From the IMG/VR virus record IMGVR_UViG_3300010153_003917, positions 1-27,529 of that record: a DNA stretch of 27,529 nt; one strand, written 5' to 3'. Of this stretch, positions 5,927-24,861 are shown in pieces (position 1 is the stretch's first letter; the number at the start of each line of letters is the position of its first letter). The position numbers and the translations under genes were made by a program. This DNA comes from a virus. Under the pieces are notes generated by a model, which made no database searches, was not told where the DNA came from, and worked only from the letters and a program-made list of their open reading frames with translations.

Positions 5927-6330
5927 AAGAATACAAGAACAGCAAAGGAGAAGTTCTCCACTGCATCTATCGTCTAGATGATTGCCAAGAAGATCGATGT
6001 GACTTCACATCTGAAGATAAGTATTTGCAGGGTGCTGTTATGAGAATGAACGATGGCAAGTCATTCAAAAACCACAAGCATATCAAGTGCGAAAGACACA
6101 TCGACATCACCCAAGAAACATGGGTGGTCTTTCGTGGTAAAGTTCAAGTTGATTACTATGATGAGGATGCAAACTTCATGGGAACAGAAGTAATCAACGC
6201 AGGAGACTGCACCATTACCTTCGCAGGAGGACATAAGTTCTCTTGCTTGGCAGACGACACTCTGGTGTATGAATTTAAGAACGGACCATACTTTGGTCGT
6301 GATGCAGATAAGGTTCTTATCAGTGAATGA
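5923..6330 (+). CDS. Cupin-fold protein of surface-glycan clusters
   Basis: A 135-residue single-domain cupin. The first motif region contains NHKHIKCERHIDITQETWV and the second contains GDCTITFAGGHKFSCL, ending with VYEFKNGPYFG. Proteins of this type often lie in O-antigen and capsule gene clusters and are presumed to bind a metal or a nucleotide-sugar; some cupins are sugar keto-isomerases. It is a separate cupin from the one at the left end of the window. It starts at an ATGA overlap with the TIM-barrel gene. The following gene overlaps its last 8 bases. Confidence 0.72.
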   Translation: MKEYKNSKGEVLHCIYRLDDCQEDRCDFTSEDKYLQGAVMRMNDGKSFKNHKHIKCERHIDITQETWVVFRGKVQVDYYDEDANFMGTEVINAGDCTITFAGGHKFSCLADDTLVYEFKNGPYFGRDADKVLISE

Positions 6331-6925
6331 AATCGTTGCAGATTTTGAAAATAAAATAGCAGAGTTTTACGGTGCGCCTTATGGTGTCGCCGTTGACTGT
6401 TGTACGCACGGGATGGAACTGTGTCTTCGTCGAGCAAGACTCGCAGGTATTCAACACATTGAAATTCCATGTAGAACTTATTTGTCGGTCCCCATGATGA
6501 CAGAAAAGGTTGGTGTGAGTTTTGATTGGATCGAAGACGAATGGAAAAACTATTACTACTTGGGTAACACAAACATAATAGATGCCGCCGTTTTTTGGGA
6601 ACGTGATGGTTATATTCCCGACACGTTCATGTGTCTTAGTTTTCAGTTCCAGAAGCACTTGAGTTTAGGTAGAGGCGGCATGATCTTGACTGATAATAAA
6701 GATGCTGCTTTAACCTTGAAAAAGATGTCATATGATGGTAGAATACCAAGTGTCCCGTGGAGGGAACAGAATGTCGATACGATGGGATATCATTATTACA
6801 TGACACCTGAAACTGCACAACTTGGCCTAAATAAATTAGGTGAAGCGATAAATACAAAACCTCGTGAATGGACAGTGACTGACTGGCCGGACTTAAGAAA
6901 GATGGAGATTTTTAATAATGAGTAA
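6323..6925 (+). CDS. Short DegT/DnrJ/EryC1-type sugar aminotransferase
   Basis: A 200-residue homologue of the N-terminal, PLP-binding part of DegT/DnrJ/EryC1/StrS aminotransferases. The start region AEFYGAPYGVAVDCCTHGMELCL matches the family cofactor loop region, and FMCLSFQFQKHLSLGRGG carries the presumed PLP lysine in the SF-x-x-x-K-x4-G-x-GG pattern; MGYHYYMTPETAQLGL matches the GYN-RM-x-x-x-QA-x-LGL element. The usual family length is about 370 residues, so the C-terminal domain is missing. The gene is intact and coupled to gmd, so it may be a natural short form rather than decay. GTG 6323 is chosen because it overlaps the prior stop and follows AAGG; ATG 6302 is an alternative. Confidence 0.75.
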   Translation: MNEIVADFENKIAEFYGAPYGVAVDCCTHGMELCLRRARLAGIQHIEIPCRTYLSVPMMTEKVGVSFDWIEDEWKNYYYLGNTNIIDAAVFWERDGYIPDTFMCLSFQFQKHLSLGRGGMILTDNKDAALTLKKMSYDGRIPSVPWREQNVDTMGYHYYMTPETAQLGLNKLGEAINTKPREWTVTDWPDLRKMEIFNNE

Positions 6926-7898
6926 AGTTGCATTGATTACTGGTATTGCAGGGCAAGATGGTAGTTACCTTAGTGAGCATTTGGTTGAACAGGGTTATGA
7001 AGTTCACGGAATGATCAGAAGGCAGTCTACTGCGGAAAATCAAGAGAACCGATTGGATCACCTGATCAGAGAAGATAAGATCAACACTCACTATGGTGAC
7101 TTGCTCGATGTGAGTTCTCTTACCAGAATCATTTTGGAAACTAAACCGACACACATTTTCAACCTCGGTGCCATGAGTCATGTCCGAGTTAGTTTTGATG
7201 TGCCACAATTTACGATTGAAACAAATGGTATTGGTGTGCTTAGTATGCTGGAACTCTATCGACAACATTGTCCAGAGGCAAAGTTCTATCAAGCATCTTC
7301 TTCTGAAATGTTTGGTAACTCAGTGGATGATGATGGTTTTCAACGAGAGACAACTCCACTCACTCCAGTCAGTCCATACGGTTGCTCGAAGGTTCTAGGT
7401 TACAACCTAGTCCGTCATTATCGTAACGCATACAATCTTCATGCGTGTAATGGTATTCTGTTCAATCACGAATCGCCACGCCGTGGTTCCAACTTTGTCA
7501 CGAACAAGGTTGTCAAGACTGCCGTACAAATCAAACTCGGACTTGTGGATAAACTCGAACTGGGTAACATGGATTCGTACAGAGACTGGGGACACTCCAA
7601 AGACTACACCCGTGGTATGATTGACATTATCAATCACGACGTAGCAGACGATTTTGTTCTTTCGACTGGTGAGACTCACTCAGTTCGTGATCTTGTTAAC
7701 GTGGTGTTCAGTCATCTTGACATGCACTGGCAAGACTATGTTGTGCAGAATCCAAAGTACATGCGACCAGAAGAACTCAAGTACCTCAAGGGAGATTCCA
7801 CCAAGGCACTCGCTGCTTTCGGGTGGGAACCAGAGTACACATTTGAATCGATGATGCACGAAATGGTGGATCATTGGATGGAAGTATTTAAACGATGA
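6918..7898 (+). CDS. gmd: GDP-mannose 4,6-dehydratase
   Basis: A 326-residue extended short-chain dehydrogenase that converts GDP-mannose to GDP-4-keto-6-deoxymannose. The NADP-binding loop is TGIAGQDGSYLSE (residues 8-20), followed by the family segment HGMIRRQST. SSSEMFGNS lies at residues 127-135, the catalytic YxxxK is Tyr154/Lys158 in SPYGCSKVLG, and FNHESPRRGSNFVTNK is the typical Gmd substrate loop. The length is somewhat below the usual 350-370. The start overlaps the aminotransferase gene by 8 bases and the end overlaps the epimerase gene by ATGA. Its product could feed the DegT-type enzyme (a 4-amino sugar such as perosamine) or the GT10 enzyme through a fucose-type donor. Confidence 0.95.
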   Translation: MSKVALITGIAGQDGSYLSEHLVEQGYEVHGMIRRQSTAENQENRLDHLIREDKINTHYGDLLDVSSLTRIILETKPTHIFNLGAMSHVRVSFDVPQFTIETNGIGVLSMLELYRQHCPEAKFYQASSSEMFGNSVDDDGFQRETTPLTPVSPYGCSKVLGYNLVRHYRNAYNLHACNGILFNHESPRRGSNFVTNKVVKTAVQIKLGLVDKLELGNMDSYRDWGHSKDYTRGMIDIINHDVADDFVLSTGETHSVRDLVNVVFSHLDMHWQDYVVQNPKYMRPEELKYLKGDSTKALAAFGWEPEYTFESMMHEMVDHWMEVFKR

Positions 7899-8776
7899 GT
7901 TATTTGGTTACAGGTGGTGCAGGATTTATCGGTAGCAATTTAGTTCAGACACTTCTAGATGAGGGAAGGGAAGTTGTTTGTTTAGACAAGAACCCACACG
8001 GAACTTTACATCAAGGTTCTATAAATTATATTGGTTCTGTCAATAACGTCGAACTACTAAGGGATCTTGTCGAGAGGTATGATGTCAAAACTATTTTCCA
8101 TATGGCGGCAGAAGCAAGTATTCAAGTTTCGTTGAAGGATCCTATACACACTACACGGCAGAATGTTTTAGGAACGAATAGAGTTCTTCAGACTGCAAGA
8201 GAATGTGGAGTGGATCGCGTTGTGTTTTCCTCTACCTCTGCTGTGTATGAGTGTGATCACCTGATTCAATGTGAGTCCTCTCATCTGAAACCAACACTGA
8301 ATCCCTATGCAATGTCGAAATATTGTGCCGAGCAATTGTGTGAGTTCTATAGCAACTATCTCAATGTAAACACCTTTCGTTACTTCAACGTGTATGGAAA
8401 CGGACATAGAGTTGATGGTGCATATCCTCCCGTGGTAGCAATTTTTATGGAGAGACAGAAGCAAGGTCTTCCACTAGAGATTGTTGGAACGGGAAACCAG
8501 AAACGAGATTTTGTTAATGTGTCTGATGTCGTGCGTGCGAATATAATGATGGCAGATTCTGATATCAAAGGCGGAATCTACAATGTTGGTTCTGGTGAAA
8601 ATCATTCAGTGAAAGAAATTGCTGATATGATTTCAGAAAATCAAATACATATAGAGCAGAGAAAAGGTGAAGTCACTTCCACTCTTGCGAACATTCATAA
8701 AATTAAAACTGAATTGAACTGGTCCCCTAAAACTTCTCTTGGGGATTGGATAAAAAATGAACTGGAGATGAATTGA
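7895..8776 (+). CDS. NAD-dependent nucleotide-sugar epimerase/dehydratase
   Basis: A 293-residue extended SDR protein resembling UDP-glucose/UDP-GlcNAc 4-epimerases. It starts with the Rossmann motif VTGGAGFIGSNLV, has FHMAAEASIQVS, the catalytic SSTSAVY and Tyr138/Lys142 in PYAMSK, and the substrate segment TFRYFNVYG. The C-terminal part has GTGNQKRDFVNVSDVV and GIYNVGSGE, standard for this group. It is closer to GalE/WbpP-type enzymes than to GDP-fucose synthase, so whether it works on the gmd product is not clear. It overlaps gmd by ATGA and the next gene by a single base (TGATG). Confidence 0.88.
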   Translation: MSYLVTGGAGFIGSNLVQTLLDEGREVVCLDKNPHGTLHQGSINYIGSVNNVELLRDLVERYDVKTIFHMAAEASIQVSLKDPIHTTRQNVLGTNRVLQTARECGVDRVVFSSTSAVYECDHLIQCESSHLKPTLNPYAMSKYCAEQLCEFYSNYLNVNTFRYFNVYGNGHRVDGAYPPVVAIFMERQKQGLPLEIVGTGNQKRDFVNVSDVVRANIMMADSDIKGGIYNVGSGENHSVKEIADMISENQIHIEQRKGEVTSTLANIHKIKTELNWSPKTSLGDWIKNELEMN

Positions 8777-10029
8777 TGGATAACTCACGCCCAAAAATTA
8801 CCCTTTGTATGATTGTAAAGGACGAACACCACTGTATCGAGAGGTGTTTGGAGTCTTGTTATCCTCACATCGACAGGTATGATATCACTGACACCGGATC
8901 GACTGATGGCACACAGGACATCATCAAGAAGTTCTTTGATGAAAAGGGAATCCCCGGTGAAGTTCATCAGTCTGACTGGAAAGGATTCGGTGATCACGCT
9001 GGTAAGATGGGATCACGCACCGAGTCACTCCACAATGCAGAAAAGAGCGATGCTGAGTATGCATGGGTTATTGATGCAGACGACTCGATCGCCGGTGACT
9101 TCCGTTGGCCTGAGGAAATGGATAAACATTCATACTCACTGAAAATTCATCGCGGTGATTTTACATGGTGGAGAAACCAAGTCTTCAAACTCGGTATGGG
9201 TTGGAAGTATTCGGGTATCCTACATGAATATGCCCATTGTGATAATGGTGCAGAACCAATAACTTCAGTTCGTATCGACGGTAACTATTATGTCGAAGCA
9301 AGAACCGAGGGAAATCGAAACGTCGATATCGATCCAGTCGAAAAGTATAGCAGAGATGCTGTGGTTCTCGAAGAGGCCCTGAAGGATGAACCAGAGAATC
9401 ATCGTTACTGGTTCTACCTTGGTCAAAGTTACTTTGATTCACAGCAATGGGTCAAAGCATCTGAAGCATATGCAAAACGTGCTACTCTCGGTGGTTGGGA
9501 AGAGGAGGCATTCTATGCATTGTTTCGTGTAGCAATTTGTTCTTCCTTGCTAGAGGAACCAATTGACGTTCAAGCACACAAGTATATGCAGGCATATGAC
9601 TACAGACCGATTCGTGCAGAACCTTTGCATCAGATTTCTCGAATGTATCGCATGAACAACATGCCACGGGCAGCATATCTTTATGCAAAACAAGCAGCAT
9701 CTTTACCTTATCCACATGGTGATATTTTATTCCTCGCAGATGAAGTATACAAGTGGCAGGCACTTGATGAACTGGGTGCGACTGCGTTCTATTGTCACGA
9801 CTACGAAGTTGGATTCCATGTGATGGAGAAACTCGTCAGTGAAAGGCACTATCCCGACTCGGAACACACCCGTATGCTTGAGAACCACCGTCAGTATTCA
9901 CTGAAGGTTCAGGAACTACACAAGCAGAGAGAAGAACAGCGACAAGCAGAAGTAGAGGCACAGAAGCAAAAGAAGGACAAAGAAGTCCGAAAGAAGAATT
10001 CCTACAAGAAGCGAAAGGGTAAGAAGTGA
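8776..10029 (+). CDS. Family 2 glycosyltransferase with TPR-like helical region and basic tail
   Basis: A 417-residue protein. Residues 6-120 are a GT-A family 2 domain, with the start KITLCMIVKDEHHCIERCL, the nucleotide-binding DTGSTDGTQD, the segment SDWKGFGDHAGKMGSRTESL and an acidic metal-binding AWVIDADDS with Asp100-x-Asp102. Residues about 190-340 are helical with TPR-like repeats (HRYWFYLGQSYFDSQQWVKA). The last about 45 residues are Gln/Glu/Lys-rich and strongly basic at the end, likely a coiled coil with a nucleic-acid- or membrane-contacting tail. ATG 8776 shares its first base with the upstream stop; GGAG lies 8 bases before it. It likely transfers a sugar made by the upstream genes; the acceptor is unknown. 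Confidence 0.87.
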   Translation: MDNSRPKITLCMIVKDEHHCIERCLESCYPHIDRYDITDTGSTDGTQDIIKKFFDEKGIPGEVHQSDWKGFGDHAGKMGSRTESLHNAEKSDAEYAWVIDADDSIAGDFRWPEEMDKHSYSLKIHRGDFTWWRNQVFKLGMGWKYSGILHEYAHCDNGAEPITSVRIDGNYYVEARTEGNRNVDIDPVEKYSRDAVVLEEALKDEPENHRYWFYLGQSYFDSQQWVKASEAYAKRATLGGWEEEAFYALFRVAICSSLLEEPIDVQAHKYMQAYDYRPIRAEPLHQISRMYRMNNMPRAAYLYAKQAASLPYPHGDILFLADEVYKWQALDELGATAFYCHDYEVGFHVMEKLVSERHYPDSEHTRMLENHRQYSLKVQELHKQREEQRQAEVEAQKQKKDKEVRKKNSYKKRKGKK

Positions 10030-10544
10030 ACGCGACAATTGTGAAAATCGAAAAACTACATGATGATGTTATTATGCCTAGTCACGCCACCTCCGGATCG
10101 GCATGTTTTGACATCCATGCCTATGTTCCAGACAAACAGATGGTGACTATTTACGATAGGTTTAATTCTGCCTTTGATGTCCCGTGTTCGGATGACGGCA
10201 CTAGGTTAGAAGCAGGAGAGAGAATGCTGGTGCCTACTGGATTCGCCCTTTCAATGCCTTATAATTATTCTGTTCGTCTTCATGCACGTTCTGGAATTTC
10301 TTTGAAGAATGGGGTTGCATTAGCAAATTCACAGGGTATAATAGATGCAGACTATCGAGAGGAAGTTTTCGTATTGCTTCATAATACAACACAACAACCT
10401 TTCATTATTAATCATGGAGACAGAATCTGTCAAGGCGAGGTCTTTGAACGTGTGAACTTTTCCTTCGAGGAAGTGGAGACCGTTAAGGACGAAGATCTCG
10501 AACGTGTTGGTGGATTCGGCAGCACTGGAGTGAAGAATGACTAG
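10026..10544 (+). CDS. dut: dUTP diphosphatase (dUTPase)
   Basis: A 172-residue trimeric-type dUTPase that hydrolyses dUTP to dUMP and pyrophosphate, keeping uracil out of DNA and giving dUMP for the ThyX enzyme encoded downstream. All five motifs are visible: GSACFDIHA (I), ARSGISLKNG (II), GIIDADYREEV (III), HGDRICQGEVFE (IV) and the C-terminal P-loop-like RVGGFGSTG (V). An insert of about 25 residues between motifs I and II is longer than in bacterial enzymes. The start is GTG 10026, overlapping the upstream stop (GTGA). It begins the nucleotide metabolism and replication block. Confidence 0.95.
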   Translation: MNATIVKIEKLHDDVIMPSHATSGSACFDIHAYVPDKQMVTIYDRFNSAFDVPCSDDGTRLEAGERMLVPTGFALSMPYNYSVRLHARSGISLKNGVALANSQGIIDADYREEVFVLLHNTTQQPFIINHGDRICQGEVFERVNFSFEEVETVKDEDLERVGGFGSTGVKND

Positions 10545-10857
10545 AGATGAATTACTGAAACATCACGCCGAACTGTCTACACAGGCAAGAGAACTGATGA
10601 ACCTCAAGAATCGTGACTATGCCGGTAGCGGTGGTGAAGAACCATTTGCAAACTTCACTCGTTGTGAGGCGATGGGCATCTGCAATACTGAACAGGGATT
10701 TATGGTTCGACTAACAGACAAGATGAGTCGCTTGAGTTCCTTCGTACAATCTGGTAAGATGCATGTTGAGGACGAGTCTTTTCAAGATACCTGCCTCGAT
10801 GTGATTAACTATATGGTTCTACTTTCTGCGTATATCAAGGACAAAGATGCCGAGTGA
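10537..10857 (+). CDS. MazG-like / nucleotide-modification-associated (DUF1599-like) protein
   Basis: A 106-residue all-helical protein. It contains ELMNLKNRDYAGSGGEEPFANF, then VRLTDKMSRLSSFV and an acidic helix VEDESFQDTCLDVINYMVLL, a pattern shared by DUF1599 (nucleotide modification associated domain 1) and other MazG-like NTP pyrophosphatases, where conserved Glu/Asp residues bind metal. A role in trimming or sensing nucleotides fits its place between dUTPase and DNA polymerase. It overlaps both neighbours (8 and 11 bases). The family assignment is from memory of the motif pattern, so the enzymatic activity is unproven. Confidence 0.7.
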   Translation: MTRDELLKHHAELSTQARELMNLKNRDYAGSGGEEPFANFTRCEAMGICNTEQGFMVRLTDKMSRLSSFVQSGKMHVEDESFQDTCLDVINYMVLLSAYIKDKDAE

Positions 10858-13357
10858 TTTCTTCTACACTAATGTGTCAATGATTGGCGACTACATCCTC
10901 TACCGAGGAATCAAAGACGGACAACCCACCCAGATTCGAGAAAAATACAACCCGACACTCTTCCTTCCATCAAACGAGAAAACTAAGTATCGCACGTTGG
11001 ACGGCAAGTTTGTCGAACCGATCAAACCCGGACAAGTTTCAGACTGTCGGGAGTTTGTTCGTAAGTATGATGGAGTCCAAGGGTTCCAAGTCTACGGCAA
11101 CACTGACTATGTGTATCAGTTCATCGGTGACATCTTTCCCAAAGAAGTCGATTATGACATCGACAAGATCAAGATTGCCACCATCGACATCGAGACGACA
11201 TGCGAAGGTGGATTCCCGCAGATATCAGATCCCAACGAAGAAGTGATCACGATCACATACTGCCTTGATGGTAAGTATTTCGTTTTCGGTCTTGGTGAGT
11301 TCGATCTACCGGAAGAGTACGAGCAATACTCCTTCGACAACGAAGAGGATCTACTCCGCACATTCTTGGAATTGTGGAACGAGGATCATCCAGACATCGT
11401 GACCGGATGGAACATCAAGTTCTTTGATATCCCATACCTTGTCAACCGAATGGTTCGAGTGTTGGGTGAACGGGAAGTTAACCTTCTTTCCCCGTGGAAG
11501 AAGATCAGATCGAAGACGATCCAACGAATGAATCGAGAGCATGAGACTTTCCAGATCATGGGTGTTTCTGTTCTCGACTATCTCGACCTGTACCGAACAT
11601 TCACTTATGTGAACCAAGAATCATATCGACTCGATCACATTGCCAATGTGGAACTCGGTGATGCGAAACTATCTTACGACGAGTTCGACAGTATGGCAGA
11701 GTTCTACAAGAAAGACTTCCAGAAGTTTGTCGAGTACAATGTCAAAGATGTGGAACTGATCGTTCGGTTGGAAGAGAAACTCAAACTCATCGAACTGTCA
11801 TTGGCACTTGCGTACTCTGCCAAGGTAAACTTCGAGGATGTGTTCTCCCAAGTTCGAACGTGGGATCAGATCATCTATCATTATCTGTCGGAACAGAACA
11901 TTGTGATTCCGATGAAGTCGGGTTCCAAGAAGGATGAACAATTCGCTGGTGCGTATGTTAAGGATCCAATCGTGGGACAACACGACTGGGTTGTGTCTTT
12001 CGACCTGAACAGTCTGTATCCCCACTTGATCATGCAATACAACATCAGTCCTGAGACGAAGATCGAACAGGACAAAGATTACATGATTACGCCTAATGGT
12101 ATCCTTGAGGGAAGTGATCGTCCGAAGAAGGCCTTACTCAACCACAAGAGCAAGGACTACTCGATCGCTGCCAACGGAACGTGCTACCGTCGAGACGTTC
12201 AGGGGTTCCTCCCTGCGTTGATGGAGAAGATGTACGAAGAACGTAGCATGTACAAGAAGAAGATGATTGAATGTCAGAAGCAGAAGGAGAAAGATCCCGA
12301 CAATCGGGAACTAGACTACCAGATTGCAAAGTTCAACAACTTCCAGTTGGTTCGTAAGATTCAATTGAACTCTGCTTATGGTGCGATTGGTAATCAATAC
12401 TTCCGCTACTTCGATGTCGATATGGCAGAAGCAATCACCTTGTCCGGGCAGTTGAGTATTCGCTGGATTCAGGATTCACTAAACAAGTTCCTGAACAATG
12501 CTCTCGACTCCGATGACAAAGACTACATCATCGCAAGTGACACAGACAGTGTGTACATTCGTCTTGGTGATCTGGTGGACAAGGTTTGCAAGAAGAAGGA
12601 CGATACATCCATCGTAGATTTCCTTGATGATTCGTGCGAGAAGATCATCGAACCATTCATCGAGAAGGAGTACAATCGACTCTCTCGCCTGATGAATGCA
12701 TACACCAACAAGATGGTGATGGGTAGAGAAGTCATTGCGAACAAGGGTATCTGGACTGCCAAGAAACGGTACATGCTCAATGTGTTCGACTCCGAAGGTG
12801 TTCGGTACGCCGAACCGAAACTCAAGATCATGGGTATCGAAACGAGTCGGAGTTCAACTCCTGCCATCGTTCGCAAGAAACTCAAGGAGGTGATCGGGTT
12901 GATCATGTCTACGGATGAGGATACCATCATCAAGTTCATCGAGGAGTTCCGGGATGAATTCAATCAACTCGATCCCGAGGAGATCTCGTTCCCGCGTTCC
13001 GTGTCCGGCATGGAGAAGTATCAAGACAGCAACACTGTCTACGCGAAGGGCACACCAATCGCAGTCAAGGGATCTCTGATATATAATAGGATGATCAAGA
13101 ACAGCGGGTTGTCTAGAAAATACAGATCAATCGTCGAGGGAGATAAGATCAAGTTCACTTACCTCAAGGTTCCAAACCCAACGAACGATCAGGTTATCGC
13201 CTTCCCGAACAGTCTACCAAAAGAACTTGACATACACAGGTTTGTAGACTATGATCTACAGTTTGATAAAAGTTTCCTCGATCCACTGAAAAACATTCTC
13301 AATGTGGTTGGATGGAACACAGAAAAAGTTAACACACTAGAATCCTTTTTTGCATAG
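10847..13357 (+). CDS. 43: Family B DNA polymerase, T4 gp43-like
   Basis: An 836-residue replicative DNA polymerase with 3'-5' exonuclease. Exo I is TIDIETT (Asp114, Glu116), Exo II is GWNIKFFDIPY (Asp194), Exo III is YNVKDVE (Tyr297, Asp301). Polymerase motif A is FDLNSLYPHL (386-392), motif B is KIQLNSAYG (504-512), motif C is SDTDSVY (565-568), and KKRY lies at 639-642. All catalytic residues look intact and the gene is uninterrupted by introns or inteins, unlike some T4-like polymerases. It is slightly shorter than T4 gp43 (898). The extreme C-terminus, TLESFFA, resembles a sliding-clamp-binding peptide. ATG 10847 overlaps the upstream gene. Confidence 0.97.
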   Translation: MPSDFFYTNVSMIGDYILYRGIKDGQPTQIREKYNPTLFLPSNEKTKYRTLDGKFVEPIKPGQVSDCREFVRKYDGVQGFQVYGNTDYVYQFIGDIFPKEVDYDIDKIKIATIDIETTCEGGFPQISDPNEEVITITYCLDGKYFVFGLGEFDLPEEYEQYSFDNEEDLLRTFLELWNEDHPDIVTGWNIKFFDIPYLVNRMVRVLGEREVNLLSPWKKIRSKTIQRMNREHETFQIMGVSVLDYLDLYRTFTYVNQESYRLDHIANVELGDAKLSYDEFDSMAEFYKKDFQKFVEYNVKDVELIVRLEEKLKLIELSLALAYSAKVNFEDVFSQVRTWDQIIYHYLSEQNIVIPMKSGSKKDEQFAGAYVKDPIVGQHDWVVSFDLNSLYPHLIMQYNISPETKIEQDKDYMITPNGILEGSDRPKKALLNHKSKDYSIAANGTCYRRDVQGFLPALMEKMYEERSMYKKKMIECQKQKEKDPDNRELDYQIAKFNNFQLVRKIQLNSAYGAIGNQYFRYFDVDMAEAITLSGQLSIRWIQDSLNKFLNNALDSDDKDYIIASDTDSVYIRLGDLVDKVCKKKDDTSIVDFLDDSCEKIIEPFIEKEYNRLSRLMNAYTNKMVMGREVIANKGIWTAKKRYMLNVFDSEGVRYAEPKLKIMGIETSRSSTPAIVRKKLKEVIGLIMSTDEDTIIKFIEEFRDEFNQLDPEEISFPRSVSGMEKYQDSNTVYAKGTPIAVKGSLIYNRMIKNSGLSRKYRSIVEGDKIKFTYLKVPNPTNDQVIAFPNSLPKELDIHRFVDYDLQFDKSFLDPLKNILNVVGWNTEKVNTLESFFA

Positions 13358-13367: not shown

Positions 13368-14456
13368 ATGAAATGGATTGAAGTAAATTATGTGTGGTTG
13401 GATGGAAACACCACACCACAACTTCGTAGTAAGACTAAGTTGATTGAAGTAGAAGATGAACAGGAGAGTATGAATCTCCAGATGATTCCAGAGTGGTCCT
13501 ACGATGGATCTAGTTGCAACCAAGCAGATCCACACAAGAGTGATCTTATTCTTCGACCATACAGTCTGTCGAAGACACCGTGGGAAACCTTCGTTGTGTT
13601 CTGTGAGGTATTCAACTCAGACGGCGAGACACCACACGAAACAAACTATCGTGCGCCTCTTCGTATGACTCTCAAAGATAATCCAGAAACCAGAGATTAC
13701 TGGTTCGGAGTCGAACAGGAGTATGTCATCTACAACACCGAAAGTGGCACGGTTCTTGGGTGGGAACAGGGTACACCCGGACCACAAGGTCCGTACTACT
13801 GTGGTGTCGGTGGAATGCGGACTGTCGGACGAAACTTTGTCAATGAACACTATGCAGTCTGTAAGACAATGGGAGTTCCGATCGAAGGTGCAAACGCCGA
13901 AGTGATGCTCGGACAATGGGAGTATCAGGTTGGATATATGGACGCACTAACTGTTGCTGATCAACTTTGGATGGCAAGGTACATGGCAGAAATTATCAGT
14001 GAGCGATATAAGTATTCCATTAGTCTCCATCCCAAACCAAAGAGCGGTGACTGGAACGGTTCGGGCGCACACATCAACTTCTCGACTCCATCCATGCGTA
14101 TGGCAAAGTCATCCAGTATGGAATACCTAGAAAGTGTTTGTGATGAGTTCGGTAATCATCCTGACCTGATTCGTGTGTATGGTGAAGACAATAATCTTCG
14201 ACTGACAGGAAAGCATGAGACTGCACATATCGAGGACTTCTCGTATGGTGTTTCGGATAGAACCAAGTCTATTCGAATTCCTGTGGATACTGCAAACGAA
14301 GAACGAGGACATCTCGAAGATCGAAGGCCTGCGGCGAACATGGATCCATATCAGGCGTTTACATCTATTATTGGTGTATTGCAACAAGTACCAGTGGCCG
14401 AGATCCGCGGCGGCGAAAAGACAGAGGTCGAGCATGAAGTTAAAAGTGGAACTTGA
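13368..14456 (+). CDS. Type II glutamine synthetase (eukaryote-like GSII)
   Basis: A 362-residue enzyme making glutamine from glutamate, ammonia and ATP. The family is GSII (eukaryotic/rhizobial GlnII type), not the longer bacterial GSI. Signatures in order: PEWSYDGSSCNQA (42-54), GVEQEYV (114-120), EGANAEVMLGQWEYQVG (173-189), PKSGDWNGSGAHINFST (224-240, ammonium/glutamate site with His235), NLRLTGKHETAHIEDFS and SIRIP...LEDRRPAANMDPY near the C-terminus. The metal-binding glutamates and ATP-binding arginines of the family are present, so the enzyme looks active. ATG 13368 follows AGGAG (13356-13360) at 7 bases. It lies between DNA polymerase and a uvsX-linked gene with no foreign flanking element. 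Glutamine nitrogen could serve nucleotide and aminosugar synthesis in the infected cell. Confidence 0.95.
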   Translation: MKWIEVNYVWLDGNTTPQLRSKTKLIEVEDEQESMNLQMIPEWSYDGSSCNQADPHKSDLILRPYSLSKTPWETFVVFCEVFNSDGETPHETNYRAPLRMTLKDNPETRDYWFGVEQEYVIYNTESGTVLGWEQGTPGPQGPYYCGVGGMRTVGRNFVNEHYAVCKTMGVPIEGANAEVMLGQWEYQVGYMDALTVADQLWMARYMAEIISERYKYSISLHPKPKSGDWNGSGAHINFSTPSMRMAKSSSMEYLESVCDEFGNHPDLIRVYGEDNNLRLTGKHETAHIEDFSYGVSDRTKSIRIPVDTANEERGHLEDRRPAANMDPYQAFTSIIGVLQQVPVAEIRGGEKTEVEHEVKSGT

Positions 14457-14643
14457 ACATGCAACATTAAAGGTTGCACATAATTTAATTTCTGATAGAA
14501 TAGATGATCTTGGTAGGAGTATAAAATTCCTCATGAAAGACAAGAGTTGTCCAAAGGACGTATTAGAAGATAAAATGGAACGGCGTGAAAAATTGCGTGA
14601 AGCACAAGAAGATATTGGGAGATTACACAATGAGTTTTCTTAA
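14434..14643 (+). CDS. Small coiled-coil hypothetical protein
   Basis: A 69-residue, highly charged helical protein. Its heptad-like pattern ([14 protein letters not shown], then [20 protein letters not shown]) suggests a coiled coil. It begins at ATG 14434 inside the end of the glutamine synthetase gene and overlaps uvsX by 14 bases, so it is coupled to both. AGAGG lies 8 bases before the ATG. No family is recognised. The position beside uvsX allows a recombination-accessory role, but nothing in the sequence shows it. Confidence 0.65.
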
Positions 14644-15694
14644 TGAAATGATTAGCAAGACAGGCAACAAGTATGCAAGTGTTGTTGCAGATGGTCTTGA
14701 TGGGAGTGATGTAGATGGGTTCGTTGATACTGGGTCTTATGCTTTTAATGCTCTGCTTTCTGGCAGTTTGTACGGGGGTATACCTGATAATAAAATTCTT
14801 GCGATCGCTGGCGAAAGTGCAACTGGTAAGACGTACTTTACGATTGGCATTGTACATAAATTTCTCCGTGATAACCCTGATGGTGTTGTTCTGTATTTTG
14901 ATAGCGAGCAGGCAGTAACTTCTGACATGTTCAGAGATCGTGGATGTGATCCGGATAGAGTCGCAGTTTTTCCTGTTGCTACGGTAGAAGACTTCCGACA
15001 TCAAGCAATCACGGTTGTGGACAACTACCTTGAACTTGCAAAGAAGGATCAGAAACCAATGCTGATCTGTCTTGATTCTCTTGGTATGCTTTCGACTGCC
15101 AAGGAGATGGAAGATACCGCAGAAGGTAAGGGTACGAGAGACATGACTCGGGCCCAAGTGATCAAGGCAACTTTCCGTGTACTGACTCTCAAGTTGGGTA
15201 AGGCAGGTATTCCCCTGATCATGACTAACCATACTTACGATGTGGTTGGTTCTATGTTCCCACAAAAGACTATGGGTGGTGGTTCTGGACTGAAGTATGC
15301 TGCTTCGACCATCGTATATCTTTCGAAGAAGAAGGTGAAGGAAGGAACCGATGTCATCGGAAATATCATTCACTGTAAACTCTTCAAGGGAAGAATGACA
15401 AAGGAGAACTCGATGATTGATGTCATGCTCAATTATGACGAGGGACTCAATCCATACTATGGACTTGTCGAGATTGCCCTTAAGTACGAGATCTTCAAGA
15501 AGGTTTCTACTCGTTTGGAAATGCCAGACGGAAGTAAGGTTTTCGAGAAGGTTCTATATAAAACTCCAGAGAAGTATTTCACTCCAGAGGTAATGAAGCA
15601 AATGGAAGTTGCCGTTGCTAAGGAATTCAAATACGGCATTGAAGAAGAAATCGAACAAAAGGAAGAAGAAAATGTCGAAGACAGCATTCAGTAA
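14630..15694 (+). CDS. uvsX: UvsX RecA-like recombinase
   Basis: A 354-residue RecA/Rad51-family strand-exchange protein of the T4 UvsX type, used in recombination-dependent replication and repair. Walker A is [11 protein letters not shown] (Gly61 to Thr68); [12 protein letters not shown] is the RecA-like second acidic element; Walker B is [12 protein letters not shown] (145-150). The region [10 protein letters not shown] carries the RecA-type post-Walker B motif and [11 protein letters not shown] the DNA-binding loop 2 area. The C-terminal tail is very acidic, as in RecA and UvsX. ATG 14630 is chosen because the longer in-frame extension reads into the upstream gene and the family starts near MSFLNEM. 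It lies in the T4-type order polymerase, uvsX, helicase, primase. Confidence 0.93.
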
Positions 15695-16112
15695 TACATA
15701 CGAATTTATCGAGTACAAGTCAGAAGACGAACTACTCGAAGGCGCCCTCAAGGTAACTGATGGTGACTACAAGGACCTCGTATATCGATATGGACTGGTA
15801 CAGTTCAAAGAGAACGAGGGACAGATGATCATGAATTTCCAGTTTGAGATTCTTGAGAATCCACATGAAGTAAAGACCGAGGACAACGGCGACCTCATCG
15901 ATTATATGGGAGATGTTTTATGCGAAATCATGGAAGAAGAGTTGCAAAATCCCAAAGATGTGGTAGAATATGAGGAAGAACAGTTCGACGAGAAAATGCA
16001 GTCAACTGTTGAAAAGATGAAATCTGACATCGAGGAAATGAGGTCTTCTTCTAGTGAATCCCGAGAACAATACCGTCGAGAAACTGATACTCCAGAATCT
16101 GATTCTGAATGA
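15672..16112 (+). CDS. Acidic hypothetical protein between uvsX and helicase
   Basis: A 146-residue, strongly acidic soluble protein with no recognised domain. The N-terminal half looks folded ([19 protein letters not shown], then [20 protein letters not shown]); the C-terminal third is a Glu/Asp- and Ser-rich helix or disordered tail ending in [13 protein letters not shown] 15672 overlaps uvsX by 23 bases, with GAAGAA upstream. Its last 59 bases also encode the N-terminus of the helicase if the helicase begins at GTG 16054. Small acidic proteins at this place are usual in T4-like marine phages, but no function is known to me. Confidence 0.75.
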
Positions 16113-17460
16113 AGAGTATTCTCGCAAAACCGTACCATTTTTACATGCAGACTATTTTCACGACATCGTAGAAAAGACTCTGTTCAAGTCCGTCCAAGAT
16201 TTTATCCTAGAGTATGGCAATCGTCCCACGAAAGAGGCGATTGTTATCTCTTTGGATGGAAAAAAGAATCTGACTCAAGATCAGTTCAACGATTGCGTTG
16301 ATATTCTCAATGATCTATGTGACTCATTTACCGAACAGGATGATGAGTGGTTGTATGAGAAGAGTGAAAAGTTTTGTAAGGACAAAGCAGTATATAATGC
16401 CATCATGGACTCTATCCAGATCATTGATGGTAAGAATGAAACACGAACAGAAAACGCCATACCTGAAATTCTATCAGAGGCCCTGTCCGTTTCGTTTGAT
16501 ACTCACATCGGACATGATTACATCGAAGATGCCGACGAACGCTATGAATTCTACCACAAGACGGAATCTAAAATCCCATTTGATCTTGAGATGTTCAACA
16601 CTATCACACAAGGCGGAACACCGAAGAAAACACTCAACATGATTCTTGCCGGTACTGGTGTGGGTAAGTCTTTGTTTATGTGTCATCATGCAGCAGCGTG
16701 TCTTTCACAAAACAACAACGTGTTGTACATCACCTGTGAGATGGCAGAGGAACGTATTGCAGAACGTATTGATGCAAACCTCATGGACATTACTATGGAT
16801 GACATGAAGGCACTACCAAAGCAGATCTACGACAAGAAGTTAGAAACTGCAACTCAAGGTTGTACAGGTAAATTGATTGTCAAGGAATATCCTACTGCCA
16901 CGGCACATGTCAATCACTTCAGGGCATTGCTCGATGAATTAAAACTAAAAAAGAAGTTTATTCCTGATATTATTTTTATTGATTACCTAAATATCTGTGC
17001 TTCGTCACGAATGAAGCAAAATGCAAACGTAAACTCCTACACATATATCAAGGCCATCGCGGAAGAACTTCGCGGTCTTGCAGTTGAAAGGAATGTTCCA
17101 GTCTTCTCAGCAACACAAACAAACCGATCTGGATTCAACAACAGTGATGTTGGACTTGAAGATACGTCCGAGTCATTCGGGTTGCCAGCAACGGCAGATT
17201 TGATGTTTGCTTTGATTTCTACCGAAGAACTAGAAGAGCAGAATCAGATTATGGTCAAGCAGTTGAAGAACAGATATAATGACGTTGTTACGAACAAGAA
17301 ATTTGTTCTTGGCATCACCCGTGCAAAGATGAAATTGTTTGATGTGGATCCGAATGAGCAAACTGGATTGGTAGATACTAATCTAACAGAAGATACAGAG
17401 TATGGTAATGGATTTGGTGAGGACTCGTTCAAGCAGAAATTTGCTGGATGGAATGTTTGA
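16054..17460 (+). CDS. 41: Replicative DNA helicase, T4 gp41/DnaB-like
   Basis: A 468-residue hexameric 5'-3' helicase, close in length to T4 gp41 (475). The N-terminal domain (1-160) contains EYSRKTVPFLHADYFHD, typical of gp41 and DnaB N-terminal helices. The RecA-like domain has Walker A ILAGTGVGKSLF (199-206), the segment VLYITCEMAEERIAERI, and Walker B IIFIDYLNICASS (306-318), followed by the DnaB-like AIAEELRGLAVERNVPVFSATQTNR. GTG 16054 is preferred because the N-terminal residues up to the first internal Met look family-like; TGAGG lies 10 bases before it. This makes an unusual 59-base overlap with the preceding gene. The primase starts in its stop codon. Confidence 0.94.
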   Translation: MNPENNTVEKLILQNLILNEEYSRKTVPFLHADYFHDIVEKTLFKSVQDFILEYGNRPTKEAIVISLDGKKNLTQDQFNDCVDILNDLCDSFTEQDDEWLYEKSEKFCKDKAVYNAIMDSIQIIDGKNETRTENAIPEILSEALSVSFDTHIGHDYIEDADERYEFYHKTESKIPFDLEMFNTITQGGTPKKTLNMILAGTGVGKSLFMCHHAAACLSQNNNVLYITCEMAEERIAERIDANLMDITMDDMKALPKQIYDKKLETATQGCTGKLIVKEYPTATAHVNHFRALLDELKLKKKFIPDIIFIDYLNICASSRMKQNANVNSYTYIKAIAEELRGLAVERNVPVFSATQTNRSGFNNSDVGLEDTSESFGLPATADLMFALISTEELEEQNQIMVKQLKNRYNDVVTNKKFVLGITRAKMKLFDVDPNEQTGLVDTNLTEDTEYGNGFGEDSFKQKFAGWNV

Positions 17461-18512
17461 TGTCAACGTATATTGATAAGAAGTTTATTAATTTTCTTTC
17501 GCCTCAACTAGAAAAGTTCGCTTGGAAGCGAGACAATCTGGCAAATTGCAGATGTCCTATCTGTGGTGATTCAAAGAAAAACAAGAACAAGGCCCGTGGG
17601 TTCTTCTTCCAGAAGGGAACCGACTTCTTCTACAAGTGTCACAATTGTGATGCCAGTTTTTCTTTGTATCGATTACTTGAACAGATTGCCCCAAACTTAA
17701 TGAAAGAGTATTCCCTAGAGCGGTGGAAGAATGGAGAGACAAATAAATCGAACTACGTAAAACCGAGGGAAAAAGAGATGTTCAAGTTTTCGAAACCAAA
17801 CCCAAAACCCAGACCAGAAATTCTAAAGGGTGTGCCTTGTATCAAGGAATTACCCAAAGATCATCAGTGTATTGAGTTTGTCAACATGCGAGGTATTCCA
17901 AAGGAACACTGGGACAAGTTATACTACACAGATAACTTCGGATCGTTCATGAAAAGAATTGATCCAGATCGTTATGATGTAGTAGGAGCAGAACCCAGAC
18001 TTGTCATACCGTTCTTCAATAAGGATGGGGAAGTTGTAGCAGCACAAGGACGTTCCATCAATTTCAAAGACGATGCCAATCGAAGACGAACTGTCAAGTA
18101 TCTCACAGTAAAGAGCGACAAGTCTTCTGATCGACTGTGGTATGGACAATGGAGAGTCAATCCAAAGAAAACAATTTACATCGTAGAGGGCCCTCTCGAT
18201 AGTCTATTCTTGCGTAACTCAATTGCAATGGTTGGTGCCGGCGCACTTGATCAAATCCCAGCACATCTCAAGCACAGTGATGGTGTCTATGTATTGGACA
18301 ATGAACCAAGGAACATTCAGATAGTTCGATATAACGAAAGACTGATTGAACTCGGCAAGAAAATTTGCATTTGGCCTTCTGCTGTCAAGGAGAAGGATAT
18401 CAATGATATGGCATACAACAAATCGACTCGAACGATCGAGAAGGTTATCAACGACAACACATTTAGTGGGATGAAAGCAACCCTCAAACTAAATCAATGG
18501 AGAAGAGTATAA
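17460..18512 (+). CDS. 61: DNA primase, T4 gp61-like
   Basis: A 350-residue phage primase that makes RNA primers with the gp41 helicase. The zinc-binding domain is at the N-terminus: CPICGDS (Cys32, Cys35), KARGFFF, then CHNC (Cys60, Cys63). The Toprim-like catalytic part has LVIPFFNKDG, IVEGPLDSLF (242-250) with the conserved Glu, and VYVLDNEPRN (277-286). The C-terminal FSGMKATLKLNQWRRV parallels the T4 gp61 ending. ATG 17460 overlaps the helicase stop by one base (TGATG); a 4-residue upstream extension from 17448 is less likely. Helicase and primase adjacency matches their joint action in the primosome. Confidence 0.94.
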   Translation: MSTYIDKKFINFLSPQLEKFAWKRDNLANCRCPICGDSKKNKNKARGFFFQKGTDFFYKCHNCDASFSLYRLLEQIAPNLMKEYSLERWKNGETNKSNYVKPREKEMFKFSKPNPKPRPEILKGVPCIKELPKDHQCIEFVNMRGIPKEHWDKLYYTDNFGSFMKRIDPDRYDVVGAEPRLVIPFFNKDGEVVAAQGRSINFKDDANRRRTVKYLTVKSDKSSDRLWYGQWRVNPKKTIYIVEGPLDSLFLRNSIAMVGAGALDQIPAHLKHSDGVYVLDNEPRNIQIVRYNERLIELGKKICIWPSAVKEKDINDMAYNKSTRTIEKVINDNTFSGMKATLKLNQWRRV

Positions 18513-18513: not shown

Positions 18514-19230
18514 ATGAGAGTTTTGGATAGAGGACATGTTCAACTCGTCGATCACATGGGAAGTGATTTGACCGTTTGTAATGCAGCAAGAGTTTCATTC
18601 AATAAAGAAAGTGATTGGTGTACAGACGAAGCAGCAGTCACCCGACTTGCCGAAAGTGGTTCCCAATACCACCCAGAGGACGTAAGGGATTTGTGTGATG
18701 GTGATAAGAAGTTGATCCGTTACCTTGCGACTCATGGACATTGGACGCCCTTTGCACATCCGCAGATCACGTTGAGAATCAAGGCACCCGTGTCGATTCG
18801 CACTCAGTTCTTCAAGCACAAGCAAGGATTCGTTGAAAACGAGATCTCTCGTCGTTATGTTTCATTCGAACCAGAGTTTTACTACCCATCCTGGCGAGGG
18901 AAACCAACGGATGGTGCAAAGCAAGGCAGTGATGACTTCATTTCGGTTCATCCTGAGGCAGAGAAGAACTTTGATAATGTGATGCGTCTTGCAATGTATA
19001 CATACAATGAACTACTTCGTAATGGAGTCGCTCCAGAGCAAGCACGATTCGCTCTCCCGCAGGGAATGTACACGGAATGGTTCTGGACGGGTTCTCTTGC
19101 TGCGTATGCAAGATTCTATAAGCAACGCATCGATGAACACGCACAATGGGAGATTCGAGAATACGCGGCGACGATTGGTAGGGTAATTCAACCCCTTTTC
19201 CGTGAATCGTGGAAGTATCTCACGGCATAA
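18514..19230 (+). CDS. thyX: FAD-dependent thymidylate synthase ThyX
   Basis: A 238-residue flavin-dependent thymidylate synthase that methylates dUMP to dTMP using methylenetetrahydrofolate and NAD(P)H. It contains HWTPFAHPQITLRIKAPVSI and the signature region RTQFFKHKQGFVENEISRRY. The canonical ThyX motif is RHRxxSxNExSxRY; here RHR is replaced by KHK and a GFV segment replaces the middle, while the NE-x-S-x-RY part is kept. The later parts ARFALPQGMYTEWFWTGSL and YARFYKQRIDEHAQWEIREYA match the FAD/dUMP-binding C-terminal half. It lies one base after the primase stop and pairs functionally with dUTPase and RNR. Its stop codon overlaps a late-promoter-like box. Confidence 0.93.
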   Translation: MRVLDRGHVQLVDHMGSDLTVCNAARVSFNKESDWCTDEAAVTRLAESGSQYHPEDVRDLCDGDKKLIRYLATHGHWTPFAHPQITLRIKAPVSIRTQFFKHKQGFVENEISRRYVSFEPEFYYPSWRGKPTDGAKQGSDDFISVHPEAEKNFDNVMRLAMYTYNELLRNGVAPEQARFALPQGMYTEWFWTGSLAAYARFYKQRIDEHAQWEIREYAATIGRVIQPLFRESWKYLTA

Positions 19231-19253: not shown

Positions 19254-19718
19254 ATGCCCTCAGCATATCACGAAATAATAATCGAACAGGGTGAAACCCT
19301 ATCATTATACTTGACATTCAAGGACGCAACTGGTGCAGTTAAAGATCTTTCTGGTCACACCGCCGATATGATGTGTCGTCGATCTGCTCTTGCAGACGCT
19401 ATTTTGTTTCATGCTCAGGGTTCTATAAATGCAGACGACAGTGTATCCTTTTCTGGATTAACTGGTGGTGGTTTGACTGGTGAATATACTCCGGGAAATA
19501 CATTTGCAGGGACTGCTGGTTCGGGTGGAATAACTCTGAACTCAAGCAGTGCAGGTGCAACTGGCACAACTGGAGGAATTCTCATTAATATGGATGCTGC
19601 TACCACTAAGAATCTACCACGCGGAAGATTCTTTTATGATCTAGAAATTAATCAACAAGGAACTGTGACTAAAGTTATTAGTGGTAGATTTGAAGTTCTT
19701 GGGGAGATCTCTAGATGA
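19254..19718 (+). CDS. Small virion structural / fibre-associated protein
   Basis: A 154-residue protein. The N-terminal part, HEIIIEQGETLSLYLTFKDATG, followed by KDLSGHTADMMCRRS, matches the common phage structural pattern I-x-QG-x-x-x-x-x-x-x-x-x-D...DL-G-x-x-A, found in small virion proteins beside tail-fibre genes. The middle is Gly/Ser/Thr-rich (residues about 70-110) and the end returns to a beta-rich segment. ATG 19254 follows AGGAG at 8 bases; a longer GTG start at 19209 would run through thyX. The stop overlaps the collagen-like fibre gene (ATGA), so the two may be assembled together in the tail or neck. The exact virion location is not shown. Confidence 0.72.
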   Translation: MPSAYHEIIIEQGETLSLYLTFKDATGAVKDLSGHTADMMCRRSALADAILFHAQGSINADDSVSFSGLTGGGLTGEYTPGNTFAGTAGSGGITLNSSSAGATGTTGGILINMDAATTKNLPRGRFFYDLEINQQGTVTKVISGRFEVLGEISR

Positions 19719-22700
19719 GTCAGAACCGAGTAGAAATTCAACAATCAAATCCAAGCATAACCATTGCATCTAACGCTGGTTTACCGGGTCCAGTGGGTCC
19801 ACAGGGTGATGATGGAACTGTTGCACAGGCAGGCGCTCCGGGAAACACAGGTAATACAGGAAACACAGGTAATACAGGAAACACCGGACCCCAAGGAACA
19901 ACTGGTAACACAGGAAACACCGGACCCCAAGGAACAACGGGAAACACTGGTAACACCGGACCCCAAGGAACTGCTGGATCTGATTCTACTGTTGCTGGTC
20001 CTCAAGGAAATACTGGTAACACTGGTAACACCGGACCCCAAGGAACTGCTGGATCTGATTCTACTGTTCCTGGTCCTCAAGGAACTGCTGGTAACATCGG
20101 ACCCCAAGGAACAACTGGTAACACTGGTAACACCGGACCCCAAGGAACTGCTGGTAACACCGGACCCCAAGGAACAACTGGTAACACTGGTAATACGGGC
20201 CCTCAAGGAACTGCTGGATCTGATTCTACTGTTGCTGGCCCTCAAGGAAACACAGGTAATACAGGAAACACCGGACCTCAAGGAACTGCTGGTAACACCG
20301 GACCCCAAGGAACAACTGGTAACACAGGAAACACCGGACCCCAAGGAACTGCTGGTAACACAGGACCCAGAGGTGCAGGAGGAACCCTTGCATTCCTTTA
20401 TGTGAACGGACCCGTTGGTGCTTCTGGTGCTTCTCTCGAAGGATTGAGTCTTGGAGTGTCTGGTGCTGGTATCACATTGATTTTCAATGGTGGTGAGACA
20501 AATGCTCAGGTAACATTCGAAGTGTCAGCAACAGGTAATAGTGATGGTTCGGGTGATCCGGTTAATACTAGTACCGTGCGGGCCGCCGGCGCATTGATGG
20601 ACGATGAACTTGCCACTGCAAGTCCTACATTCGCTGGTGTTTCTGCTGCTGGTATTAGTGCTGATATCGTTAACATTGGAAATGTGATTAAATTCACCAG
20701 TGGTATGACTGCTGCATCTATTGTTACTACAGTGAACGGTGTTTCTGGTGATGTTACGATTTCTGGGAGTAGCGAAGAAGACTTTACTACAGCACTGAAG
20801 AACAAACTCGACGCTATTGAAGCAAGTGCTGATGTAACCGATGCTACCAATGTAACATCAGCAGGTGCCTTGATGGATTCTGAACTTACATCTATAGCAG
20901 ACGTTAAGGCACTGAACCAATCAGTCGTAACATCCGCACACCCCACATTTGCTGGTGTTTCTGCTGCTGGTGTCAGTGCAAACTTTGTAGATATTGGTGA
21001 TCAGATCAAGTTCACCAGTGGTATGACTGCTGCATCCATTGTAACTACAGTCAATGGTGTGTCTGGTGATGTCACACTTGTTGTCACCGATCAAAACTTT
21101 ACCGATGATGATCATACTAAACTTAATGGTATTGAAGCAAGTGCCGATGTGACTGATGCTACAAACGTGGCAGCAGCAGGTGCATTAATGGATTCAGAAC
21201 TTTCATCTATCGCAGATGTCAAGGCATTAGATCAATCAGTAGTATCCGGTGCAAGTCCTACATTCGGCACGGCCAACTTCACTGACGCTTCCAATAAGCG
21301 TCTGATGACGGATGCACAGGAATCGAAGTTGGACGGAATTGAAGCAAGTGCTGATGTAACCGATGCTACCAATGTGGCAGCAGCAGGTGCATTAATGGAT
21401 TCTGAACTTGCGTCTATAGCAGATGTCAAGGCACTAGATCAGTCAGTCGTATCAGGTGCAAGTCCAACATTTGCCGCAACCAACTTTACTGGAATCACAC
21501 ACACTGACGAGAATTTTACTGCTGCCGATCACACTAAACTTAATGGAATCGAAGCAAGTGCTGATGTGACTGATGCCACTAATGTAGCATCTGCGGGTGC
21601 ATTAATGGATTCCGAACTTGCGTCTATTGCAGATGTTAAAGCATTAGATCAATCAGTAGTATCCGGTGCAAGTCCTACATTTGCGGCAACCAACTTTACT
21701 GGAATCACACACACCGACGAAAACTTTACTGCTGCCGATCACACTAAACTCAATGGAATTGAAGCAAGTGCTGATGTGACCGACGCTACCAATGTGGCAG
21801 CAGCAGGTGCATTAATGGATTCCGAACTTTCGTCCATTGCAGATGTCAAGGCACTAGATCAGTCAGTCGTGTCTGGTGCAAGTCCAACATTCGGAACAGC
21901 CAACTTCACTGATGCATCAAACAAGCGGTTAATGACAGATGCACAAGAATCAAAGTTGGATGGTGTGGAAGCAAGTGCTGATGTAACTGATGCTACCAAC
22001 GTGGCGGCAGCAGGCGCACTAATGGATTCAGAACTTACATCCATCGCAGATGTTAAGGCACTAAACCAATCAGTCGTAACAACTGCACATCCAACATTCG
22101 CTGGTGTTTCTGCTGCTGGTGTTTCTGCCAACTTTGTAGATGTCGGCGATCAAATTAAGTTTACCAGTGGTATGACTGCTGCATCTATTGTTACCACCGT
22201 AAATGGTGTTTCTGGTGATGTTACGATTTCTGGGATTAGCGACGAAAACTTTACTACAGCACTGAAGAACAAACTAGATGGTATTGAAGCAAGTGCTGAT
22301 GTAACTGATGCTACCAATGTAACATCTGCCGGTGCCTTGATGGATTCAGAACTTTCATCTATAGCAGATGTTAAAGCATTGGATCAATCGGTAATATCAG
22401 GTGCAAGTCCAACATTCGGAACGGCCAACTTTACCGATGCGTCTAACAAGAGGTTGATGACGGATGCACAGGAATCGAAGTTGGACGGAATCGAAGCAAG
22501 TGCTGATGTAACCGATGCTACCAATGTAACATCTGCCGGTGCCTTGATGGATTCTGAACTTACATCTATAGCAGATGTTAAGGCACTGAACCAATCAGTC
22601 GTAACATCCGCAAATCCAACATTCGCTGGTGTTTCTGCTGCTGGTGTCAGTGCTGACATAGTTGATGTTGGAAATATGATTAAGTTTACCAGTGGTATGA

Positions 22701-24856: not shown

Positions 24857-24861
24857 AGGAG
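24857..24861 (+). promoter_or_regulatory. Ribosome binding site of the RNR gene
   Basis: AGGAG lies 11 bases before ATG 24873. An in-frame GTG at 24861 overlaps this site itself and has no other purine-rich site close by, so ATG 24873 is the better start although the spacing is a little long. Confidence 0.65.

Follow-up and report, generated by a model that had tools for sequence, protein, structure and literature searches.

The window, by which we mean the whole 27,529-nucleotide stretch of viral DNA analyzed here (IMG/VR record IMGVR_UViG_3300010153_003917), carries on its plus strand an open reading frame without internal stop (13368–14456, 362 aa by translation), whose ATG is closely preceded by an AGGAG-type ribosome site and whose product is assigned by profiles, PDB relatives, a fold model and residue conservation to the type II glutamine synthetases (GSII). 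The gene is tightly packed among T4-like replication genes of the same strand. Upstream, the T4-type DNA polymerase gene (gp43; 10847–13357, 1095.7 bits with PHROGs) ends 10 nt before the GSII start, preceded in turn by an ORF with a DUF1599/nucleotide modification associated domain under the Pfam cut-off (10537–10857) and by a dUTPase gene (10026–10544). Downstream, the end of GSII overlaps by 23 nt a 69-aa ORF (14434–14643) with no Pfam or PHROG match, which itself overlaps by 14 nt the gene of a UvsX-like recombinase (14630–15694). These are followed by a 146-aa ORF of PHROG 3998, function unknown (15672–16112), a DnaB-like replicative helicase (gp41; 16054–17460), a DNA primase (gp61; 17460–18512) and a thymidylate synthase that we read as being of the ThyX type (18514–19230); the dUTPase and the genes from uvsX onwards were assigned with PHROGs. 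A ribonucleotide reductase gene with weak B12-type domains lies further downstream (24861–26807). The coordinates of the GSII frame and its T4-like order with coupled neighbours, both proposed in a first-pass annotation made from the letters alone, are borne out by this arrangement.

Among the best 25 isolate matches listed for the window polymerase, the closest are cyanophages (52.7–55.0% identity), and the terminase of the GSII-carrying 128-kb phage contig G001 matches cyanophages at about 61%, indicating that the phage is T4-like and far from every isolate in that collection. The window originates from a marine T4-like virus of bacteria. An auxiliary metabolic gene is expected to be an enzyme gene within an assured phage genome, and this is what we find, as T4-like replication genes surround GSII in the window, and terminase and GSII reside together on G001.

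Two further regions of the window deserve mention. Beside the replication genes, positions 1–10029 are taken up by genes for nucleotide sugars and glycosyl transfer (cupin, aminotransferase, SIS, GDP-mannose dehydratase, epimerase and glycosyltransferases), a block whose content is not the same in G001. At 19715–23062, a long protein was seen by eye to have collagen-like Gly-x-y repeats and, after them, many longer repeats resembling one another; its content differs among relatives (70% match in L002), and it is possibly a tail fibre.

With NCBIfam models, the window protein scored 331.8 bits against GlnII versus 68.6 bits against type III and 63.6 bits against type I, and 27 bits against gamma-glutamylputrescine synthetase. 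The GlnII score lies under the equivalog cut-off of that profile (500 bits), as do those of four further phage GSII (351.9–444.6 bits), and we therefore name the protein a divergent GSII-type enzyme rather than filing it as a GlnII equivalog. The catalytic Pfam domain Gln-synt_C was detected at 70 bits (cut-off 24), and the N-terminal Gln-synt_N at 26.6 bits, under its gathering score of 33.4. In the PDB, yeast glutamine synthetase (3fky) was the top match (E 1.4e-85), and the best 16 distinct sequences, which we take to be type II glutamine synthetases, all reached E ≤ 1.2e-77 before a jump to 4e-11. An AlphaFold model built from 9 rows (pLDDT 71.8, pTM 0.78) fell under a pLDDT of 50 at residues 136–150, 174–182, 225–231, 277–283 and in the tail, several active-site loops included; when this model was submitted to Foldseek, all 50 matches listed were glutamine synthetases (335–373 residues, ∼40% identity), the best being 4bax (E 1.1e-32).

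To these data we added a residue analysis based on an alignment of 162 representatives (37 T4-like, 7 from the group E described below, 39 other phage, 77 bacterial and 2 eukaryotic). Fourteen positions, presumably forming the metal, ATP/nucleotide, glutamate and ammonium sites of glutamine synthetases, were invariant in 162/162 rows, namely D46, S49, E116, E118, Y144, E178, E185, H235, R278, E284, R298, R303, E317 and R319 (window numbering), of which we take D46, S49, Y144, E178 and E284 for the ammonium site. Near the active site, W112 and H283 vary among the 37 T4-like rows (W in 20, H in 32), position 315 is H in 17, the window included, and Y in 20, and N176 and Y143 vary slightly (each kept in 36). 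The first-pass claims of a type II enzyme and of intact metal- and ATP-site residues agree with these profile scores and invariant positions, on which we also reject the other glutamine synthetase types (GSI, GSIII) and a gamma-glutamylpolyamine ligase. The predicted identity of the enzyme as a GSII is well supported.

Apart from its atypical family, nothing at the locus favours an assembly chimera or host contamination, the former having been flagged in the first-pass annotation as one of the conditions that would overturn its reading. GSII was found on six other IMG/VR contigs (L002–L007), all six with the GSII-uvsX junction and five with the pol-GSII junction, L007 starting within GSII. Over the shared part of pol-uvsX, nucleotide identity to the window was 99.98% for L002, 100% for L004 (partial), 95.5% for L006, 93.0% for L005, 92.9% for L003 and 93.6% for L007 (partial); L002 and L004, being nearly identical to the window, are weaker independent evidence than L003, L005, L006 and L007. 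Matching neighbours on six further contigs at 92.9–100% identity rule out an assembly chimera, and together with G001, which carries T4-like structural-size genes, the terminase and one GSII, and with a GC content of 0.43–0.47 over the GSII region, they leave a chimeric or contaminant origin a negligible probability.

The gene is clearly under purifying selection, which the first-pass annotation had named, for a viral clade, as support for its claim, with dN/dS values of 0.090 against L003 and 0.094 against L006 (0.06–0.09 within the lineage). This is slightly looser than for the core replication genes, for which the corresponding L003/L006 values are 0.049/0.026 (polymerase), 0.063/0.068 (uvsX), 0.055/0.060 (helicase), 0.067/0.054 (primase) and 0.016/0.035 (ThyX); dUTPase gave 0.230 (L006 only).

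Among named phage records, GSII matches are rare (5/50,697) and comprise four huge phages at 44–46% identity, two of these matches being of equal length and place, and one record at 24.8%. Two profile scans of IMG/VR yielded 504 pattern matches with 469 relatives (best 80 of 469 kept) and 302 matches with 245 relatives (best 80 of 245 kept), where the counts refer to stretches rather than distinct viruses and some contigs may be non-viral; phage replication genes are present on the T4-like contigs with GSII. Bacterial and archaeal genomes gave at least 595 pattern matches and at least 588 relatives, the best 80 mostly from Bacteroidota, Verrucomicrobiota and Planctomycetota. The first-pass description of GSII as mainly eukaryotic is outdated in view of these at least 588 prokaryotic relatives and the 469 found in IMG/VR. 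In 26 contigs searched whole, each of the 21 GSII contigs holds one GSII copy.

We then surveyed the position of the gene by searching the core genes of the window phage across 155 loci in which GSII is near-complete, a number that includes several contigs twice. Ten loci fell at pol|uvsX, 18 at gp61|thyX, gp61|nrd or gp61|end, 25 at gp46|gp45 or one side of it, 2 after regA and 9 at nrd|pol or nrd|end; the remaining 91 loci, mostly from other phage groups, showed no such replication neighbours. Repeated contigs were collapsed by hand, by name, giving 7 contigs for joint A (pol|uvsX; the window and the partial L007 included), 12 for joint B (gp61|thyX), 25 for joint C (gp46|gp45), one for joint D (after regA) and 8 for joint E (helicase-nrd|GSII|pol; L161, L303, L305, L315, L328, L332, L333 and L334). 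To joint C we add L320, whose GSII lies between a methylase-like gene and an RNase H gene; an RNase H homologue (PF09293) is the next core gene rightward in 17/25 joint C loci. Joint E belongs to a more distant phage group, the L161 polymerase matching that of the window at 38%; in five of its contigs pol is also visible beyond GSII, L305 and L332 show only nrd|GSII, and the group apparently acquired GSII in its replication block independently. Over joints A–E, the neighbours of GSII include ThyX, ribonucleotide reductase, RNase H and the sliding clamp. The pol-GSII-uvsX arrangement pointed out in the first-pass annotation was encountered in a single lineage (7 contigs among the loci examined), and the wider pattern is one of several replication-block joints.

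Of the 105 ORFs of at least 80 aa on the 128-kb contig, about 22 lie in replication stretches, so that random placement would reach such a stretch about once in five times. Four replication-block places in one clade would by chance be of the order of 0.002, which is rough arithmetic and not a test, the loci having been sorted partly by context. The recurrence of GSII at the joints of one gene block suggests a link between the supply of nitrogen and the replication of viral DNA.

How the gene is distributed among phages was addressed in several trees. A quick GSII tree (136 rows) requires 3 changes for either label, virus or bacterium, compared to about 44 in shuffles. In a 104-row tree, joints A, B and E each correspond to a single starred group, and a starred group of 38 unites the rows of A, B, C and D with L318 and L320; 36 of its rows, and L320 too, lie at replication-block joints; the 8.9-kb contig of L318 shows no core gene. 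A careful tree of 63 rows again has A, B and E starred and places L318 outside, weakly, the A–D group receiving moderate support (91/96 without and 70/70 with L320); the branch leading to the window lineage is long (0.8). A single origin of the T4-like GSII is favoured by these trees, and virus-only groups, a viral clade having been named as supportive in the first-pass annotation, are present. Overall, its interpretation is partly borne out: it stands as regards enzyme type, residues, gene order, virus groups and selection, and needs correction as to the breadth of the arrangement and the notion of a mainly eukaryotic family.

Within the clade, GSII is an accessory gene. None of the 80 matches listed for loci collected through the clamp loader gene gp44 carried it, many of these loci showing only some joints, which indicates that GSII is dispensable and rules it out as a core gene of the clade; an earlier gp44 tree had made it look core because carriers had been found through GSII. 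In the gp44 tree of 79 rows, which drew on these 80 loci with those under 62.5% identity and near-copies left out, the 24 rows with GSII all belong to a single starred group (58 rows), and its sister group (21 rows), which includes cyanophages, has none; joint C was scored as in view and empty in 27/79 rows under a loose rule (one gene of each side found), the others not showing this joint. GSII and gp44 distances correlate (Spearman 0.48 among 20 C rows, 0.29 over all 25 rows, with 0/2000 permutations as high in either case), as partly vertical descent accompanied by losses would predict. The GSII of L284 falls among those of other B phages (starred), a grouping not shared by its polymerase or gp44 (unstarred), and this discord hints at transfer. 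One gene at four joints, with many sister phages without GSII in view, amounts to a natural experiment, and the entry and movement of accessory genes in the T4 replication block become open to study through these joints.

The pol-uvsX joint itself takes mixed cargo, GSII being one of several. The two genes lie ≤60 nt apart or overlap in 47 of the 98 locus rows holding both (some contigs twice), and in several GSII-less relatives the joint contains small ORFs of about 60–70 aa, to be compared with the 69-aa ORF of the window. In L207, with no GSII in view, the joint holds a Mom base-modification gene (3195–3821; PF25680, 76.8 bits), and in L197 an HNH-like gene (22.3 bits, under the cut-off of 24.8); still other ORFs fill it elsewhere. 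Homing endonucleases may possibly play a part. As such cargo is unrelated to GSII, position alone is no proof of a replication role. In L284, an ORF very similar to the L207 Mom gene occupies the pol-uvsX joint (5356–5985), the GSII of this contig being at gp61|thyX.

Genes of possible nutrient uptake were observed at other joints. A protein of 314 aa, absent from the window and weakly matching phosphate transporters (PHO4; 18.4 and 22.5 bits, under the cut-off of 33.7), is encoded at gp61|thyX in L013 (961–1905, minus strand) and L003 (7774–8715), and the GSII contig L321 contains a gene 61% similar to it (26 bits). Directly after the ribonucleotide reductase gene, a porin gene is found in the window (26832–27527, running off the end; Porin_O_P, 29.6 bits) and in G001 (12313–13338), with Porin_4-type relatives at the corresponding place in L116 and L144 and porin matches after nrd also in L117, L274 and L288. 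The porin had no match in 50,697 phage records; weak porin matches occurred in 13/199 genomes from the phylum of L058, 2/200 from that of L072 and 0/4 single genomes, and are too weak for naming a host. As a tentative view, to which we give clearly less than even weight, the T4-like clade would keep nutrient supply within its replisome regulon, with GSII, the PHO4-like gene of the window relatives and the post-RNR porin as interchangeable cargo at fixed joints, and with GSII relocated among at least four joints with its function kept.

The family of the enzyme, its intact active-site residues, the packing of its gene, the purifying selection and the repeated placement at replication-block joints lead us to propose that the locus probably encodes a functional GSII, co-expressed with the replisome, that feeds glutamine into nucleotide synthesis and escapes some host controls. 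In this model, GSII would be translated together with polymerase and uvsX from one early transcript, and the active enzyme would convert glutamate, ammonium and ATP to glutamine. Host GSI may be subject to adenylylation and other type-specific controls, and a GSII devoid of host-type GSI regulation would allow the phage to keep producing glutamine after host takeover, a stage at which nitrogen may limit the synthesis of purines and CTP, and hence of dNTPs, for a genome of at least 128 kb. GSII would then be an accessory cargo kept by some T4-like phages at the joints of the replication block.

Glutamine consumers of the host include purine, CTP and other amidotransferases. Searches for phage-encoded partners, positive in 13 or 14 of 14 control genomes, detected a class I glutamine amidotransferase in 0/26 contigs (21 with GSII), a GATase_6-type protein in 0/19 (14 with GSII), and an ammonium transporter (Amt) and PII each in 0/19, absences that are weak given that many of these contigs are fragments. 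The two amidotransferase results argue against a dedicated phage-encoded glutamine consumer; as no glutamine-using phage enzyme was found, the consumer would be that of the host. Likewise, an Rfam scan that took in 6/9 candidate stretches (the window, L012–L015 and L020, with L016–L018 left out) returned no match, arguing against riboswitch control of GSII in these six.

Several alternative roles need to be weighed against this proposal. GSII might be general nitrogen-assimilation cargo, providing glutamine for virion protein and other synthesis, with its place reflecting early expression and a convenient insertion joint. The varied inserts at the pol-uvsX joint of GSII-less relatives (Mom in L207, HNH-like in L197, small ORFs) are in line with such a role, as are the 91/155 loci without replication neighbours and the other phage groups carrying GSII away from replication genes, e.g. 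beside portal matches (L119, L134). However, 36 of the 38 rows of the T4-like GSII group, plus L320, are located at replication-block joints, leaving only L318 without a core gene, and a distant phage group too has GSII beside nrd and pol, albeit in a set assembled partly through context. We thus regard general nitrogen cargo as a serious yet rather unlikely explanation.

A signalling or control function, in which the enzyme shifts the glutamine/2-oxoglutarate ratio or binds host nitrogen regulators and thereby resets nitrogen transcription, could draw on the glnA (glutamine) riboswitch annotated in the replication region of S-CREM1, as some T4-like phages may sense glutamine; the conserved active-site residues, the lack of Rfam matches in the window and five other stretches, and PII at 0/19 make it improbable. 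Even more improbable appears a gamma-glutamyl ligase of glutamine synthetase fold that would use another amine substrate for sugar decoration or DNA base modification. The window is indeed rich in nucleotide-sugar genes, and the Mom gene occupies the same pol-uvsX joint in L207 and, by ORF similarity, in L284, but the residues taken for the ammonium site are unchanged, the gamma-glutamylputrescine synthetase profile reaches just 27 bits, and the trees put the window protein among ordinary GSII. Overall, we retain the proposal of a GSII supplying glutamine to nucleotide synthesis. The placement of the gene beside polymerase, clamp, RNase H, primase, ThyX and ribonucleotide reductase in several lineages leads to an idea open to testing, namely that the nucleotide supply during phage DNA replication is limited by glutamine, and to a further one, that these phages bring an enzyme type possibly beyond the reach of host controls.

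That phages can encode a glutamine synthetase has been published before. It was reported in 9 of 25 moraphages and read as an auxiliary metabolic gene (PMC12619734), glnA is listed for jumbo phages (PMC13037316), a glutamine synthetase gene is described in SAR86-linked viruses of the Ross Ice Shelf (PMC10721903), and the enzyme is mentioned for viromes of the Eastern tropical South Pacific (PMC9083009). In their accessible parts, these sources count it among nitrogen-cycling genes and do not connect it with any one step of infection. The Global Ocean Sampling study of 2007 counted 1,021 type II glutamine synthetases, more than 90% of which were assigned to bacteria, and described a large viral ("GOS-viral") type II group near mimivirus (PMC1821046). 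On the regulatory side, the OM43 phage Melnitz is reported to have a glutamine riboswitch and to lack glnA (PMC9004378), and in SAR11, infection by two pelagiphages is accompanied by a rise of host-encoded glnA (PMC12753301). Within the open-licence literature, most subscription papers and preprints lying outside this scope, the accessible texts gave no GSII in a T4-like replication block.

Like the window phage, moraphages are large aquatic phages encoding a glutamine synthetase; they belong to another lineage, and in the accessible description, on which this comparison is based, neither the synthetase type nor a link to replication genes is given (PMC12619734). The GOS viral group differs from the window GSII in being placed with mimivirus and eukaryotic enzymes, its phage context not being described in the accessible text (PMC1821046). 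Unannotated GSII of four huge phages (LR756501, LR756503, LR756502 and LR745206) share 44–46% identity with that of the window, but these genomes span 634–735 kb, have another gene context in the flanks compared and occupy separate branches of the GSII trees. The solved GlnII structures (yeast 3fky, Streptomyces 4bax and maize 2d3a) resemble the window enzyme in fold, length, catalytic residues and profile, from which it departs by its ∼40% identity, its score under the NCBIfam equivalog cut-off and its being encoded in a phage operon, as well as by H at position 315 (Y in both eukaryotic rows).

A parallel in genome organization is provided by T4-like cyanophages. In S-CREM1, the depositor-annotated glnA riboswitch (L026, 3877–3975) lies between regA and pol, the same genome part that holds GSII in the T4-like L140. 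The two cyanophage regions compared differ from the window in that pol and uvsX are adjacent or nearly so, without GSII. Similar to the window phage, T4-like cyanophages carry metabolic genes within the same syntenic replication block, as exemplified by the 2OG-Fe(II) oxygenase gene located between recombinase and helicase in S-CREM1.
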